A DNA stretch of 32,443 nt from NCBI GenBank assembly GCA_025453525.1, contig JALOQD010000009.1, positions 1,710-34,152 of the forward strand, in the 5' to 3' direction. Made by a program: the position numbers and the translations under genes. Positions 3,767-30,554 of the stretch are shown here, in pieces. Numbering within the stretch: the first letter of the stretch is position 1; every line of letters begins with the position of its first letter. The notes under the pieces were generated by a model that made no database searches, was not told the origin of the DNA, and was given only the letters and a program-made list of their open reading frames with translations. The stretch is from Myxococcota bacterium (GTDB taxonomy: Bacteria; Myxococcota_A; Polyangia; JAAYKL01).

Positions 3767-5215
3767 CTACGGAAGGTCGGGGTCCGGGGGCTCTGGGCTT
3801 CCGTATTCGAGCACGTTGGTGTCGGTGTCCGAGATGCCGTACTCGGGCTGAGGATCGGTGTTTGTGTCTGGCATGCCGTATTTTTCGACATTGGTGTCGA
3901 CATTGGTGTCGGTGTCTGGGATGCCGTACTCGGTCTGGGGATCGGTGCTCGTGTCTGGCATGCCGTATTTTTCGACATTGGTGTCGGTGTCTGGGATGCC
4001 GTACTCGGGCTGAGCATCGGTGCTCGTGTCAGTGGTGGTGTCTGTGGGCTTGGGATTCGGATCGTCTGACTCTGGGCAACCGGTCCCTAGGCCTACGAGG
4101 GTTCCAGCGAGCAGGGCCGCGGCTGCGGCGTGACCGACCTTGTGATGAGCTGGCGCGTCCTCGCAGGCGATGCGGTATAGGCACTGGGTGTACTCGCCGA
4201 GCTGGCCAGAGGCGACCCGTTTGCCCAGGCATCCGCCGCGACACACGGTGGCGTGCTTGCACTGCTGGCAAAAGCCGCGCAGCTGCTCGATGCTCCACTT
4301 TCGATTGTAGGCAAAGGCGTTTGGGTCGTTCCAGATGTCCGCGAGCGGCCTCTGGCGTACGTTGCCCTCCACGTAGTCCTTCCCCTCTTCGTTGTAGCCG
4401 GCCATGATGGAGAGGCAGCCCTTGACGTTGCCGTTGGACTCGATGCCGATGACGCGCACACCGGCGCCGCAGCCGCCGAACGCGGCCTTCTTGCGTCCGT
4501 TGTGCACGCTGCTGCGCAGTGCCACCTCGTGCTGACCGTAGTAACCGATGGAGTCGGCGATATCGACGCGCATGCGGCCGCGCCGGACGATGTCCGCGAG
4601 AATGCTCTCGAGGGCTGGGAGGCTCCGTTTGTCCAGATGAAGATCTGGATGCTCCCGCAGGTTGCCCATGTCAGAGCCGAGCTGCACCTGCCAGGCAAAG
4701 GCGCCGTGGTTGGCGAGCAGCTCGTACATGTCGCCGAGCTGCCTGAGGTTGAGGGAGTTGATAAAGGTGACGCTGGCCCAGGGCAGGCCTGCCGCGACGC
4801 TGGCGTCCATGGCCCGTATGATGTGCTCGAAATGGCCGACCTTGCCGCGCACCCGGTCGTGCACCTCCCGCAGGCCGTCGAGGCTGAAGCCCACGGCGGC
4901 CAGACCCGCATCCCTGGCGGCCTTGGCGTTTTCGACGTTCCAGAGCAGTGCGTTGGTGATGAGCCCGACGCGCATGCCGGCTTTTTTTGCGCCGGCGATG
5001 AGCTCCAGCCAGTCCGGGCGCATGGTGGGCTCTCCGCCTGAGATGGTCACTCGCTCGCAGCCGATGCCAGCGAGCTCCTCGAACACGCGCAAGCTCTCTG
5101 CGGTCGATAGCTCGTCGCCGCGCGCCTTGCCCGCCCTCGAGCCGCAGTGCTGGCAGCGCAGGTTGCACGCCAGGGTCGCTTCGAACACGCAATTCTTCGG
5201 GGTGTAGGTCGGCAT
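3767..5215 (-). CDS. Radical SAM/SPASM protein with fused lipobox-like segment and YG-repeat tail
   Basis: A predicted peptide-modifying radical SAM enzyme of 482 residues. The [4Fe-4S]/SAM motif is Cys17-x3-Cys21-x2-Cys24, with SGGEP at 59-63. A full seven-Cys SPASM domain follows: Cys249, Gly262-x4-Cys267, Cys316-x2-Cys319-x5-Cys325-x3-Cys329, and Cys345. After it comes a hydrophobic Ala/Leu/Gly stretch (363-379) ending in GLGTGC (Cys380), which resembles a lipoprotein signal but is internal. A Pro/Asp/Thr tail follows with six YG motifs (405, 417, 430, 446, 459, 471), mostly YGIP or YGMP. The tail looks like a modification substrate carried by the enzyme itself (inference). ATG 5215 is preferred because AGGAGG lies before it; ATG 5239 is an alternative adding eight residues. 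Confidence 0.85.
   Translation of the reverse strand: MPTYTPKNCVFEATLACNLRCQHCGSRAGKARGDELSTAESLRVFEELAGIGCERVTISGGEPTMRPDWLELIAGAKKAGMRVGLITNALLWNVENAKAARDAGLAAVGFSLDGLREVHDRVRGKVGHFEHIIRAMDASVAAGLPWASVTFINSLNLRQLGDMYELLANHGAFAWQVQLGSDMGNLREHPDLHLDKRSLPALESILADIVRRGRMRVDIADSIGYYGQHEVALRSSVHNGRKKAAFGGCGAGVRVIGIESNGNVKGCLSIMAGYNEEGKDYVEGNVRQRPLADIWNDPNAFAYNRKWSIEQLRGFCQQCKHATVCRGGCLGKRVASGQLGEYTQCLYRIACEDAPAHHKVGHAAAAALLAGTLVGLGTGCPESDDPNPKPTDTTTDTSTDAQPEYGIPDTDTNVEKYGMPDTSTDPQTEYGIPDTDTNVDTNVEKYGMPDTNTDPQPEYGISDTDTNVLEYGSPEPPDPDLP
3794..4006 (-). repeat. In-frame repeats encoding the YG-motif tail
   Basis: Imperfect direct repeats in the 3' end of the radical SAM gene. Two units encode residues 404-427 and 429-456, each with one YGIPDTDTNV half and one YGMPD half. 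The second unit carries an extra DTNV, an in-frame 12-base duplication. A partial third unit reads EYGISDTDTNV and is followed by LEYGSP. The DNA is nearly identical between units, so the tail has grown or shrunk by recent duplication. Confidence 0.9.
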
Positions 5216-5264
5216 CGTCGGTTCTCCTCCTTGACTCATGCTTTCTTCAACAATGTGCCCTGGT

Positions 5265-7997: not shown

Positions 7998-8089
7998 GGG
8001 GAAGATCCGACGGATCGGTCGGATCGGTCGGATCCGACTGGGGGAAGATCCGACGGATCGGTCGGATCGGTCGGATCCGACCGATCGAC
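7998..8089 (+). repeat. 9-bp repeat array 1 (between glgP and the four-helix-bundle gene)
   Basis: Two exact 41-bp copies (7998-8038 and 8041-8081) separated by TG. Each is built of the 9-mers GATCCGACG, GATCGGTCG, GATCGGTCG and GATCCGAC. Every 9-mer starts with GATC. The same unit recurs twice inside the next gene. The array is nearly self-complementary and can fold into hairpins. Confidence 0.95.
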
Positions 8090-8096
8090 TTTTTTT
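8065..8096 (+). terminator. Rho-independent terminator formed by the repeat array
   Basis: A perfect 22-base palindrome (8065-8086, half site GATCGGTCGGA) followed after three bases by seven T (8090-8096). It stands 75 bases past the glgP stop and 84 bases before the next start. The terminator stem is made of the 9-bp repeat units themselves. Confidence 0.7.
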
Positions 8097-8179
8097 CGCG
8101 CCCCAGGCCTTGGGAAAAAAATTGCAGCTCGGTGCAGTTTTTTGGCAACTTCTGGGATCTTTCGGCCGAGATACTCCCC

Positions 8180-9019
8180 ATGAGCACCTCTGAGCACCGA
8201 CCCAGACTCCGGCCCTCGGGCGGCTACCGCGAGCTGCGCTCCTTCCGAGCCGCGACCCTCATCTACGACGCCACGGTCCTGTTCTGTCAGCGGTTCTTGA
8301 GCTCGCGTTCCCGCACTGTCGATCAGATGGTCCAAGCAGCCCGTAGCGGACGCCAGAACATCGCCGAGGGCAGCCGCGCCGCAGCGATATCGAGCCAGAC
8401 CGAGCTGCGCCTGGTAAACGTCGCGCGCGCCAGCCTCGATGAGCTGCTCCTCGACTACGAGGACTTCCTGCGCCAGCGCACCCTTCCCCAGTGGACCAAG
8501 GACCACCCCCACGCCCTGCGGGTCAGGGCGCTGAGCGCAGTGCAAAATGATTCGAAAGATCCGAAAGATCCGAAAGATCCGACGGATCCGACCGATCCGA
8601 CCGATCGGTCGGATCTCTCCCAGCCCACCCAGCGCTTTGGCCCCTACGCGCCCTGGCTCACGCACGTCGATCCCGCGGTCGTGGCCAACGCCCTCTTGTG
8701 CCTCATCCACCAGGCCAACACCCTGCTCGATCGCCAGATCAGCGCCCTGGAGCAAGCGTTTGTCCACGAAGGCGGCTACACCGAGCAGCTCGCCGCGGCG
8801 CGGTGCGCCACGAGGCGAAATCGAGCCCAAGAAGATCCGACGGATCGGTCGGATCGGTCGGATCGGTCGGATAATCTGCCGAGCCGTCCTCCGCCGCGAT
8901 GCCCCGAGTGCGGGGGCCAAATGGTGTGTCGCACCGCTCGCCGAGGCCCCTGGCCTGGCTCGTGCTTCTGGGGCTGCTCAACCTTTCCTGCCTGCCGGGC
9001 AGTGTTGGCAATGGAGTGA
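8180..9019 (+). CDS. Four-helix-bundle (IVS-like) protein with suffix domain and topoisomerase-type zinc finger
   Basis: A 279-residue protein related to the four-helix-bundle proteins first found in 23S rRNA intervening sequences. Residues ~18-100 carry the family core, including GRQNIAEGSRAA, SQTELRLVNVARASLDELL and DYEDFLRQ. A second helical part (about 147-210) fits the four-helix-bundle suffix type. The C-terminus (about 240-278) is a CPECGG ... FWGCSTFPACRAVL zinc finger like those on topoisomerase I. Function is unknown; nucleic-acid binding is plausible. Two Asp/Pro/Thr/Arg/Ser repeat tracts (residues 124-146 and 219-231) are encoded by the 9-bp arrays and sit between domains. The ATG at 8180 is the first that suits the family start; no clear Shine-Dalgarno precedes it. 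There is no rRNA gene nearby. Confidence 0.85.
   Translation: MSTSEHRPRLRPSGGYRELRSFRAATLIYDATVLFCQRFLSSRSRTVDQMVQAARSGRQNIAEGSRAAAISSQTELRLVNVARASLDELLLDYEDFLRQRTLPQWTKDHPHALRVRALSAVQNDSKDPKDPKDPTDPTDPTDRSDLSQPTQRFGPYAPWLTHVDPAVVANALLCLIHQANTLLDRQISALEQAFVHEGGYTEQLAAARCATRRNRAQEDPTDRSDRSDRSDNLPSRPPPRCPECGGQMVCRTARRGPWPGSCFWGCSTFPACRAVLAME
8549..8615 (+). repeat. 9-bp repeat array 2, inside the four-helix-bundle gene
   Basis: Seven units of GATYCGAAA / GATCCGACS / GATCGGTCG plus a final GATC. In frame it reads NDSKDPKDPKDPTDPTD and onward, an inter-domain linker. The unit length of nine keeps the frame open whatever the copy number. Confidence 0.93.
8834..8873 (+). repeat. 9-bp repeat array 3, inside the four-helix-bundle gene
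   Basis: GATCCGACG once, GATCGGTCG three times, then GATA. It encodes an Asp-Pro-Thr-Asp-Arg-Ser-Asp linker just before the zinc finger. Confidence 0.93.
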
Positions 9020-12185: not shown

Positions 12186-13196
12186 ATGACGACAAAAAAA
12201 CTCCCGATGATCGGTATTGTGGCGCTTCTTATGACCTTCGCCGTGAGCTGTGGCGACGACATTCAGGGCGCCAAACCGATGGACACGACAAACGGCGAAG
12301 GCGAGGGCGAAGGCGAGGGTGAAGGCGAAGGGGAAGGCGAGGGCGAAGGGGAAGGTGAGGGCGAAGGGGAAGGCGAGGGCGAAGGCGACGACCCAGGCGC
12401 GGCGTTTGTGGGCACTTGGGGCGAGCTCCTCAACCTGCCCATCAAGCAGACCGGTATCCCCCTCATCAAAACCCAGGTCGCCATTGGTCGCACCTACTTT
12501 CTCAACACCATCACCAGCGACGGCCAGGGAAATCTGACGATTTCGCAGCAGGCGTGCAAGATCATCACCAAGCTCCAGTTGCCTGGAAACAATCTTCTGG
12601 TGCCTAATGCGTTCATTGACGGGCTCGAGCCTGTGGTGCGCCATGTGACCGTGACCTCGAACAAGCCAGGCACGCCGTTCGTCTCCGACGATGTCTACGA
12701 GGTGCGCGGCGCCAAGCTCAAAAACCCGACGAGCGATCCTCTGCCGAAAAACGACTCTGGCGGCAAGGCTCTGCCCTGCGACGAGGCGTCCTTTGGCTCT
12801 GAGTGCGACCAGGACAATGACGGCAAGCCAGGGATGACCAACGTGTTGTCCGGCATGCTCAACTGCAAGATCTATGTCGTCCAGCGGTGGCACGCCCAGT
12901 ACGACGGCGAGGTCGTTGACGAAGATCACATCGCCGGTTCAGTGCCGAAGAATTTTTCAGAGCAAAGAGTCCTGGGTTCGAATGATATCCTGTGCCATGC
13001 GCCGGACGCGAATACGACGGCAGTGAACCAAAAATGCCCAGACATTTTCTACTTCAAGATGGTCCGCCTCGACAAGGGCGCGACCTGCGAAGACGTCATG
13101 GCCCTGACGAACTGCGATGATAAGCCCAATGCGTGCGACGGCGACGACACCTACGAGCTGAATCCTGCGCTGGATGATCCGGACGATTGCGATTGA
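12186..13196 (+). CDS. Lipoprotein with (GE)n linker, family unknown
   Basis: 336 residues. The signal TFAVSC gives the lipidated Cys22, followed by Gly-Asp-Asp; a 31-residue Gly-Glu linker then leads to a globular domain with conserved-looking Cys pairs. The globular part begins FVGTWGELLNLP, which resembles the opening strand of small lipocalin-like lipoprotein folds, but I do not recognise the family. The Asp-rich C-terminus (DGDDTYELNPALDDPDDCD) could bind calcium. AGAGGAA precedes ATG 12186. It follows the FadL-like barrel closely, so it is a candidate accessory or ligand-delivering lipoprotein of that barrel (inference). It converges with the PilB-like gene 19 bases away; no terminator is visible between them. 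Confidence 0.8.
   Translation: MTTKKLPMIGIVALLMTFAVSCGDDIQGAKPMDTTNGEGEGEGEGEGEGEGEGEGEGEGEGEGEGEGDDPGAAFVGTWGELLNLPIKQTGIPLIKTQVAIGRTYFLNTITSDGQGNLTISQQACKIITKLQLPGNNLLVPNAFIDGLEPVVRHVTVTSNKPGTPFVSDDVYEVRGAKLKNPTSDPLPKNDSGGKALPCDEASFGSECDQDNDGKPGMTNVLSGMLNCKIYVVQRWHAQYDGEVVDEDHIAGSVPKNFSEQRVLGSNDILCHAPDANTTAVNQKCPDIFYFKMVRLDKGATCEDVMALTNCDDKPNACDGDDTYELNPALDDPDDCD
12294..12386 (+). repeat. Hexanucleotide repeat encoding the (GE)n linker
   Basis: 15.5 units of GGCGAR (GGCGAA or GGCGAG, with a few GGTGAR/GGGGAR). Mixed third bases mean it is not a fresh slippage product. The same kind of linker occurs in the lipoprotein at 29827-30447. Confidence 0.95.
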
Positions 13197-28517: not shown

Positions 28518-29630
28518 CTAGGGAACAGACCTCGCAAGGCGGAAGCCCAAAAGGTTGTCGCGGATGCCCTGGGTGCCGAAGGTGCGATCGCCGCAGCGAG
28601 CGTATCTCGCATCGAAGAACGAATCGCCGCCCCGTACCACGCGGTCGGAGGCCGATAAGGGACCTACGGGGTCGACAAGCGGCGAAGCGACTGAACCGGC
28701 GGGATATGTCCTTTGATACCCATCCCACGTCCACTCCGACACGTTGCCGCTCATGTCGTACAGGCCCCATGCGTTCGGCGTCTTGCCGGCTACCGGGTGC
28801 GGCGTGCTGCTCGCGTTGCCGCAGTACCAGCCAATCGCGTCCAGGTTCGTGTCGAGCGGTGAGCAACCCATATTCGTGATCGCCCCGTTGGAAAACGCCG
28901 TCAGCGTCCCGGCCCGCGCCGCGTACTCCCACTCGCTCTCCGTCGGCAGCCGGTACCCAGAGCAGGCCTGCGGTTTCGAATAGGCCGCCTTGAGCTCGCA
29001 CGTCACGCTCTCACCCGTGCCCGTGCAGTCGTAGCATGCGGCGTACCCCGCCTGCGCCGACAGCGCGTTGGCGAACGTCAGCGCCTCGTGCCAACTCACC
29101 ATCTCCACAGGACAGGTGCCACCGCAGCTCGCGAAGACCGACGGGTTGTAGTCCATCAGCGCCTCGAACTGCGCCTGCGTCACCTCCGTCCGCATCAGCT
29201 CGAACGCGTGCGTCAGCGTCACGTAGTGCAGGTCCTCGTCATCGAAGCGGCCGAGCTCCGAGGTGCACGACGCGCCGCCGGGGCCGGTGTAGTCCGAAGG
29301 GCAGCTCCCGTCAGGTGTGCCCATCCAGAACGACCCGGCTGGGGTCGTCGTCCACTCCGCGCCGATGTCCACCGTCGTCGTGTCCGTGTCGGGCCCCGTT
29401 CCTGTGCCAGTGTCGCTCCCTGTGTCCACCGCGGTTCCACTGCCGGTGCCTGTATCGGTGTTGCTCCCAGTGTCCACCCCGGTCCCGCTGCCAGTGTCCG
29501 TGCCCGTGTCGGGCCCCGTTCCTGTGCCAGTGTCCTCCGTGTCTTTCCCGCCCCCACTGTCCCCGCAACCGACGAGTACTAGCAGACAAACGAAAACCGC
29601 GATCCCCAACAAGATAATGTACCTTTTCAT
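28518..29630 (-). CDS. Lipoprotein with FGE-sulfatase (SUMF1-like) domain, probably non-catalytic
   Basis: 370 residues. The signal ends LVLVGC (Cys22); a long Asp-Thr-Gly-Ser linker (31-86) follows. The domain (about 90-368) has the usual FGE blocks: PAGSFWMGTPDG, ELMRTEVTQAQFEALM, PVEMVSWHEALTFANALS, YRLPTESEWEYAARAG, WGLYDMSGNVSEWTWD, VVRGGDSFFD and LLGFRLAR. Real formylglycine-generating enzymes have a copper-binding Cys pair after RGGS; here the place reads SFFDARYARCGDR, with the first Cys lost, so enzymatic oxidation of sulfatases is unlikely. It is more likely an exposed binding domain. Extra Cys pairs (CPSDYTG ... CTSE; CYDCTGTGESVTC) suggest disulfides. AGGAGG lies before ATG 29630. 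It is 196 bases downstream of the DUF1566 lipoprotein. Confidence 0.88.
   Translation of the reverse strand: MKRYIILLGIAVFVCLLVLVGCGDSGGGKDTEDTGTGTGPDTGTDTGSGTGVDTGSNTDTGTGSGTAVDTGSDTGTGTGPDTDTTTVDIGAEWTTTPAGSFWMGTPDGSCPSDYTGPGGASCTSELGRFDDEDLHYVTLTHAFELMRTEVTQAQFEALMDYNPSVFASCGGTCPVEMVSWHEALTFANALSAQAGYAACYDCTGTGESVTCELKAAYSKPQACSGYRLPTESEWEYAARAGTLTAFSNGAITNMGCSPLDTNLDAIGWYCGNASSTPHPVAGKTPNAWGLYDMSGNVSEWTWDGYQRTYPAGSVASPLVDPVGPLSASDRVVRGGDSFFDARYARCGDRTFGTQGIRDNLLGFRLARSVP
29373..29540 (-). repeat. DNA repeats encoding the (DTGS/GTGP)n linker
   Basis: Degenerate 6-12 base direct repeats (units such as GGCACAGGAACG and GACACGGG on the coding strand) giving alternating DTGT, DTGS and GTGP. 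Two ~24-base stretches reading GTGTGPDT are nearly identical. It is a flexible linker between lipid anchor and FGE-like domain. Confidence 0.8.
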
Positions 29631-29826: not shown

Positions 29827-30447
29827 TCAAAGGACCAAACGGACACACCGGACCCGGAGACCGTCCGGCTTGCTGTCGTACATGACGTAGCCGGTGCCGA
29901 AGTCCGCGTACCACCCGTGGGACCCACTGACCGCGTTGGACGACGACCAGTAGTGACTGCACGTCCCGCCCAACGCCGGATCCCAGTAGCACCCCGACGC
30001 GGGTGAGCACTCACTGCATGTGGTTCTGTCAGCACAGCTATTCATCGTTACACACCCTTCGGGGATCATCTCGCAGAAACTCCGGCTCAGGTCTCCTGTC
30101 GGGTCTCCATCTTCACATCCGCGGAGCAGCGAGATCAGCTCGTCGATGTTGGGCAATCGCCAGTCCGACTGGCCACCAATGTTAAGGCCGTTACAGTAAG
30201 CAAGGGCTTCATCCCAGGTGGGCTCACCGGTCGATGGAGGGTTCTCCCAGCACAAATTCGTCACCGAATCCAGCTTGCCGCCGGCGCAGTCGGTCATTTC
30301 CGAAGCGACGCCCTCGCCCTCACCTTCGCCCTCACCTTCGCCCTCGCCGGTATCACTGGGCGAAGCGCTGTCATCGTCGCCGCAGCCGACTAAAGACACA
30401 GGCAGAATGAGCAGACAAAATACAAGAAAGCCTGAAACTCGTGCCAT
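29827..30447 (-). CDS. Lipoprotein with DUF1566 (Lcl C-terminal-like) domain
   Basis: 206 residues. The signal ends VSLVGC (Cys22), followed by GDDDSASPSDT and a short (GE)n linker. The domain matches DUF1566 landmarks: LCWENPP, TWDEALAYCNGL, DWRLPNIDELISLL, HYWSSS and the ending WYADFGTGYVMYD ... LRVRCVR. The family is extracytoplasmic, with a C-type-lectin-like fold in some members; the exact role is unknown. Many Cys (CADRTTCSECSPASGC) point to disulfides outside the cytoplasm. ATG 30447 is preferred over the upstream in-frame ATG (30465) because GGAGGTGG lies before it and the signal peptide then starts normally. It lies upstream of the FGE-like lipoprotein, same strand. Confidence 0.87.
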   Translation of the reverse strand: MARVSGFLVFCLLILPVSLVGCGDDDSASPSDTGEGEGEGEGEGEGVASEMTDCAGGKLDSVTNLCWENPPSTGEPTWDEALAYCNGLNIGGQSDWRLPNIDELISLLRGCEDGDPTGDLSRSFCEMIPEGCVTMNSCADRTTCSECSPASGCYWDPALGGTCSHYWSSSNAVSGSHGWYADFGTGYVMYDSKPDGLRVRCVRLVL

Positions 30448-30554
30448 TGGCCACCACCTCCACATTTTGGATGAGTTACGTGGAAGAGCGATCGCCTTTC
30501 ATAGAAGCATGGCGACGGCGATTCCTGCAACCCCGCTGCCATGGTGCCCGTCGT

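Follow-up and report, generated by a model that had tools for sequence, protein, structure and literature searches.

Radical SAM/SPASM enzymes such as SkfB, PqqE and SuiB act on separate precursors and have no fused tail, and among SPASM enzymes PqqE and MftC are known to act on Tyr. In NCBIfam, the families TIGR04133 and TIGR04134 pair a radical SAM/SPASM enzyme with a lipoprotein. Fusion of a maturase with its target is represented by the borosins. In types I-III (for example, omphalotin OphMA) a RiPP maturase is fused to its own core peptide and acts on it, and the split borosins (type IV) are the unfused counterparts of these fused forms (PMC8429565).

The window analysed here is a stretch of 32,443 nucleotides from a Myxococcota bacterium. 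On its minus strand, which carries all features of the gene described below, a single frame spans positions 5215 to 3767 and encodes a 482-aa protein combining a radical SAM/SPASM maturase, an internal lipoprotein-type signal and a tail of YxxP repeats. GGAGG is present upstream of the ATG at 5215, and an alternative start at the in-frame ATG at 5239 is possible. Pfam recognises only Radical_SAM, SPASM and Fer4_12 in this protein. The Radical SAM domain (aa 14-167, 4715-5176; PF04055, 1.6e-26) carries CX3CX2C as Cys17/21/24, invariant across 67 homologues. The SPASM domain (aa 249-345, 4181-4471; PF13186 match at aa 249-320, 1e-8) contains Cys249, 267, 316, 319, 325, 329 and 345, six of which are invariant in the 67 homologues, the exception being Cys329. 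In the AlphaFold2 model the enzyme part (aa 1-355) mostly has pLDDT > 90, and its closest solved relatives, by sequence as well as by fold, are SkfB, PqqE and SuiB. Domain content and Cys positions thus point to a radical SAM/SPASM enzyme of the peptide-maturase type; the modification of a peptide is itself an inference. A first-pass annotation had described a seven-Cys SPASM domain, a hydrophobic run ending in GLGTGC380 and six YG motifs, all in one frame with no internal start codon before the hydrophobic part. Each element of this description was borne out for the window gene.

Comparison with the NCBIfam systems places the protein outside all of them. The enzyme scores 152 bits on TIGR04133, far from the cut-off of 425, and the tail has no TIGR04134 match at E<=1; membership in this pair of families was therefore rejected. 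The best NCBIfam matches of the enzyme domain are TIGR04103 (nif11-class peptide maturase 3; 252 bits, cut-off 725) and TIGR03913 (GDL-motif peptide-associated maturase; 239 bits, cut-off 592), and neither cut-off is met. In contrast to these two systems, the window gene has no recognised nif11 or GDL-motif peptide gene next to it, although no dedicated search for one was made. Judged by these profile scores, the enzyme belongs to a subfamily other than TIGR04133 and resembles TIGR04103 and TIGR03913 more closely, though it stays below both cut-offs. Its architecture also differs from TIGR04133/TIGR04134 in being one fused chain with many repeats and without a TIGR04134 domain in the tail. The first-pass annotation had mentioned YGxP motifs in TIGR04134 lipoproteins and suggested aligning the tail with them. 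The tail does not match the TIGR04134 model, but the presence of such motifs was confirmed: partners of the TIGR04134 type carry YG[TMV]P just past the lipobox, and YG[TM]P near the lipobox is found in true TIGR04134 lipoproteins. The protein at L147 928-1551 is above the TIGR04134 cut-off and carries TACIVEYGTPYAEF, while those of L149 and L117 read ACYGVP and ACYGMP, respectively. The latter is part of a near-threshold TIGR04133/TIGR04134 pair on another contig of the host (C253; L117 1450-1812 and 315-1466), the enzyme of which reaches 370 bits on TIGR04133 against the cut-off of 425.

The parallel with the borosins lies in the joining of a maturase to a putative core within a single chain and in the existence of split counterparts elsewhere. 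However, the borosin catalyst is an alpha-N-methyltransferase, a domain missing from the window protein, which has radical SAM/SPASM instead; also unlike in borosins, enzyme and core are separated by a lipoprotein-type signal. By analogy, the system would act like TIGR04133/TIGR04134 and like a fused borosin while belonging to neither, the modification being inferred.

The proposed substrate is the Asp/Thr/Pro-rich tail (aa 381-482, 3770-4075), which is disordered (pLDDT < 50). Each of the six Tyr in these 102 residues is followed by Gly: YGIP at Tyr405 (3992-4003), YGMP at Tyr417 (3956-3967), YGIP at Tyr430 (3917-3928), YGMP at Tyr446 (3869-3880), YGIS at Tyr459, with Ser in place of Pro (3830-3841), and YGSP at Tyr471 (3794-3805). 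Six YG were reached in none of 100,000 shuffles of the tail, ruling out chance or composition as their origin. The main arrays of the tail have periods of 12, 36, 75 and 87 bp, every one divisible by three, as expected from the in-frame repeat duplication proposed earlier. When the window gene is compared with its nearest paralogue, dN/dS comes to about 0.17 for the enzyme part and about 0.33 for the tail; among three further fused genes (L022, L047 and L129) the tail value is 0.15-0.25. By these ratios the tail is under purifying selection, and it is therefore translated and kept as protein. Structure prediction had been suggested as a way to see whether the tail reaches the active site. The enzyme and the helix that follows it were modelled by AlphaFold2, but the disordered tail was left unplaced.

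The first-pass annotation had considered either Tyr or Gly as the modified residue. Across the sequences compared, the constant core of the motif is Tyr with Pro at +3 or +4, and Gly is not constant. Gly appears dispensable, because one paralogue has only DYSAP, DYSTP and DYSDP, and the residue after Tyr in split precursors is usually Met, Gly, Ala or Ser. Gly is thus an unlikely target. Tyr is inferred either to carry the modification itself or to form one end of a crosslink; which reaction takes place is unknown.

The fused architecture is not restricted to the window. Three more fused genes accompany the window gene in the host genome (5.9 Mb, 89% complete), bringing the total to four; a tandem pair lies on contig C375 (85% and 54% identity) and a single gene on C376 (42%). 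Relatives were gathered by a GTDB scan and genome searches, and duplicates were merged before tails were counted. This yielded 38 distinct fused tails across Myxococcota/'Deltaproteobacteria', from many independent assemblies, 34 of them with at least two Y[GASM] motifs. Among 205 Tyr in 29 fused tails, 110 are preceded by Asp or Glu and 137 are followed by Gly; Pro is at +3 in 64 and at +4 in 98. Some tails add CCxCxYGxxPPxVxxxCC units. There are a few aberrant forms. The L125 and L093 tails both keep the lipobox and are D/S/T-rich; the former is uninterrupted without Y[GASM], and the latter hits a stop without showing one. These two are possibly decayed or differently targeted. The uninterrupted tail of L094 lacks Y[GASM] and has a single YDAP, and in L038 an in-frame stop separates the lipobox from the repeats.

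In the host genome, the DNA pattern for YGxP-Asp-Thr occurs five times, always inside fused genes, and a search with the tail matches fused genes only. This confinement favours action of the enzyme on its own kind over action on a separate substrate, although an unseen separate substrate is not excluded because the genome is only 89% complete. Among 21 fused loci, no recurrent neighbour gene was found, whether a protease, a transporter or a possible substrate; the largest neighbour cluster is, by its sequence, an antisense frame of the enzyme gene. A conserved operon partner was accordingly rejected for these loci.

Homologous loci in which the two parts are split, a search for which the first-pass annotation had proposed, were found in two forms. 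At least 18 unfused loci (L015, L016, L020, L021, L023, L025, L027, L028, L029, L031, L032, of which L137 is a duplicate, L037, L097, L099, L101, L135, L139, L142 and L144) belong to the same clade as the fused forms and have a separate same-strand neighbour with a short helical leader (for example, MSESEIRAILRxVCERLARQ or MKEKDIRERIHTFLRD), together with an internal, lipobox-bearing hydrophobic stretch and YGVP/YMAP/YSAP/YAAP repeats. In seven further split loci, the precursor has a zinc-ribbon leader and one or two Tyr motifs. When both types are pooled, 31 of the 92 Tyr in 19 separate proteins precede Met, 25 precede Gly, 16 Ala and 11 Ser; Ala is at +2 in 50 and Pro at +3 in 59. None of the representative split precursors tested matched a Pfam or NCBIfam family above cut-off. 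In a tree of 94 enzyme domains, the fused label requires 3 changes versus 28 in shuffles. This strong clustering of fused and split forms implies that fusion or fission took place one to three times, in a direction that is unresolved.

Other arrangements were seen around enzyme relatives. At L107, L109, L110 and L111, related radical SAM genes, two in tandem, stand beside a lipoprotein-like protein with a single C-terminal YKGVSFP, YRGVAFP or YLGVRF motif, and at L107 and L110 a sulfatase-like gene is next in order; this looks like another uncharacterised maturase-target pair. Unfused relatives at L017/L103, L024/L104 and L105 have an L,D-transpeptidase-like gene directly downstream, and no YxxP partner was found nearby. 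Outside Myxococcota, a similar motif is present in Chlorobium ferrooxidans, where a protein ending in LLYGTPPVPLYQAPSK (L043 5393-5920) is encoded upstream of a distant enzyme relative.

The link between enzyme and tail is a predicted helix (aa 357-375, HHKVGHAAAAALLAGTLVG; 4091-4147), in which a positive side precedes a hydrophobic run that is conserved in fused relatives. The run ends in GLGTGC, with a lipobox-like GTGC at Cys380 (4076-4090), and the residue at -1 of the Cys in fused relatives (n=29) is small: Gly in 21, Ala in 5 and Ser in 2. Median run lengths are 16 residues (fused) and 15 residues (split). The net charge is positive ahead of the run and -7 after the Cys (median, 30 residues). 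Two features of the window protein are atypical: Gly occupies -3, where Leu, Val or Ile is preferred, and the signal is internal in the chain. The latter had been called topologically strange. The internal position is real, but it is less odd than it seemed, since split precursors also place the run after a leader, here a cytoplasmic one of about 25-80 residues, and an internal signal is thus a rule of the family rather than a peculiarity of the fusion. Lipidation and cleavage at Cys380 are inferred from these features.

Other lipoproteins are encoded in the window. Two putative ones (12186-13196 and 29827-30465) have (GE)n linkers after the lipobox Cys, and a third (28518-29630) has an Asp/Thr/Gly linker ahead of a formylglycine-generating-enzyme-like domain; the acidic linker after Cys380 resembles the linkers of all three. 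Elsewhere in the window, several arrays of 9-bp units (CGGATCGGT / GATCCGACG type) occur at three places within 900 bp (7998-8872), inside or beside a four-helix-bundle-like ORF.

The above observations are probably best explained by a radical SAM/SPASM maturase whose substrate is covalently part of the same polypeptide, the enzyme modifying the Tyr repeats and the tail then being exported; both the chemistry and the processing steps are inferences. Within the cytoplasm, the enzyme would direct SAM-cluster radical chemistry at the Tyr of each Y-x-x-P, or at a bond linking this Tyr to a residue close by, working iteratively along the disordered tail of its own chain or of a second copy. The enzyme domain would stand in for the short leader of the split precursors. 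The internal hydrophobic segment may then serve as a lipoprotein signal for Sec export, with Lgt lipidating Cys380 and LspA cleaving the chain, which would leave the enzyme in the cytoplasm and the modified repeats anchored outside it. The union of enzyme and lipoprotein-like target, already suspected in the first-pass annotation, is supported by the recurrence of the fusion in many homologues, by the split YxxP lipoprotein-like counterparts, by purifying selection on the tail and by the confinement of YGxPD[T] to fused genes. It is weakened by the fused tails without the motif, by Gly at -3, by the failure of AlphaFold2 to place the tail and by the incompleteness of the genome. More tentatively, one may think of an autocatalytic maturase in which the enzyme is both the leader and the n-region of the lipoprotein signal and modifies the Tyr of each YxxP repeat in its own tail before LspA severs the product, giving one displayed modified lipopeptide per enzyme. 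It would belong to a large Myxococcota family, so far undescribed, whose members are either fused or split with a helical or a zinc-ribbon leader. We regard this extended version as somewhat less likely than not.

Other readings of the same data have to be weighed against a self-modifying, exported tail. The tail may be the substrate and yet remain uncleaved, the helix being a signal anchor that tethers the enzyme to the inner membrane with the modified tail outside. It is an established topology for a big folded domain to precede a lone helix, as in PknB-type kinases with their large cytoplasmic domain, one export helix and external repeats, and the predicted helix 357-375 and Gly at -3 fit such an anchor. 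However, in virtually every fused form, and in the split precursors, the run terminates in a Cys preceded by a small residue, and it is as short as in lipoprotein signals (median 16 residues), making an uncleaved anchor unlikely. We regard as less likely still that the enzyme modifies another protein and that the chemically unchanged tail merely anchors or localises it. Asp/Thr-rich linkers are indeed common after the Cys in other lipoproteins of the window (for example, 28518-29630), and a few fused relatives lack the Tyr motif. The first-pass annotation had named the same enzyme with unrelated tails as a refuting case, but this holds only for a minority (L125 and L093 without the motif, L094 with one YDAP), 34 of the 38 tails keeping it. 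Moreover, in split loci it is this Tyr motif that recurs along the separate neighbour protein, and no candidate substrate turns up repeatedly next to the 21 fused loci compared.

The other refuting case, an assembly frameshift joining two genes, does not apply. The fusion is present in dozens of independent assemblies, which excludes an assembly artefact, and the tail, read in the frame of the enzyme, shows purifying selection. Translation of the tail from an internal start might be suspected from the in-frame GTG or ATG near the junction in some fused relatives, but several others have none, and in the window gene no in-frame ATG, GTG or TTG occurs from the SPASM end to the hydrophobic run; this candidate was also rejected. 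Taken together, artefact and internal start are very hard to credit.

The fusion is thus real and recurrent, and apparently undescribed: no account of it was found in the open-access literature, subscription papers not being covered. On the best reading it represents a widespread lipoprotein-RiPP-like system, the chemistry and processing of which are inferred. Since enzyme and target are one molecule, a substrate motif (Y-x-x-P past the lipobox) can be assigned to radical SAM/SPASM enzymes without a named target, and this motif is tied to the long-listed but functionally open TIGR04133/TIGR04134 system. One expressed protein holds both enzyme and substrate, so that the unknown chemistry may be read directly by mass spectrometry. 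If confirmed, the family would be, to our knowledge, a radical SAM counterpart of the borosins, with a lipoprotein signal sited after a folded enzyme.
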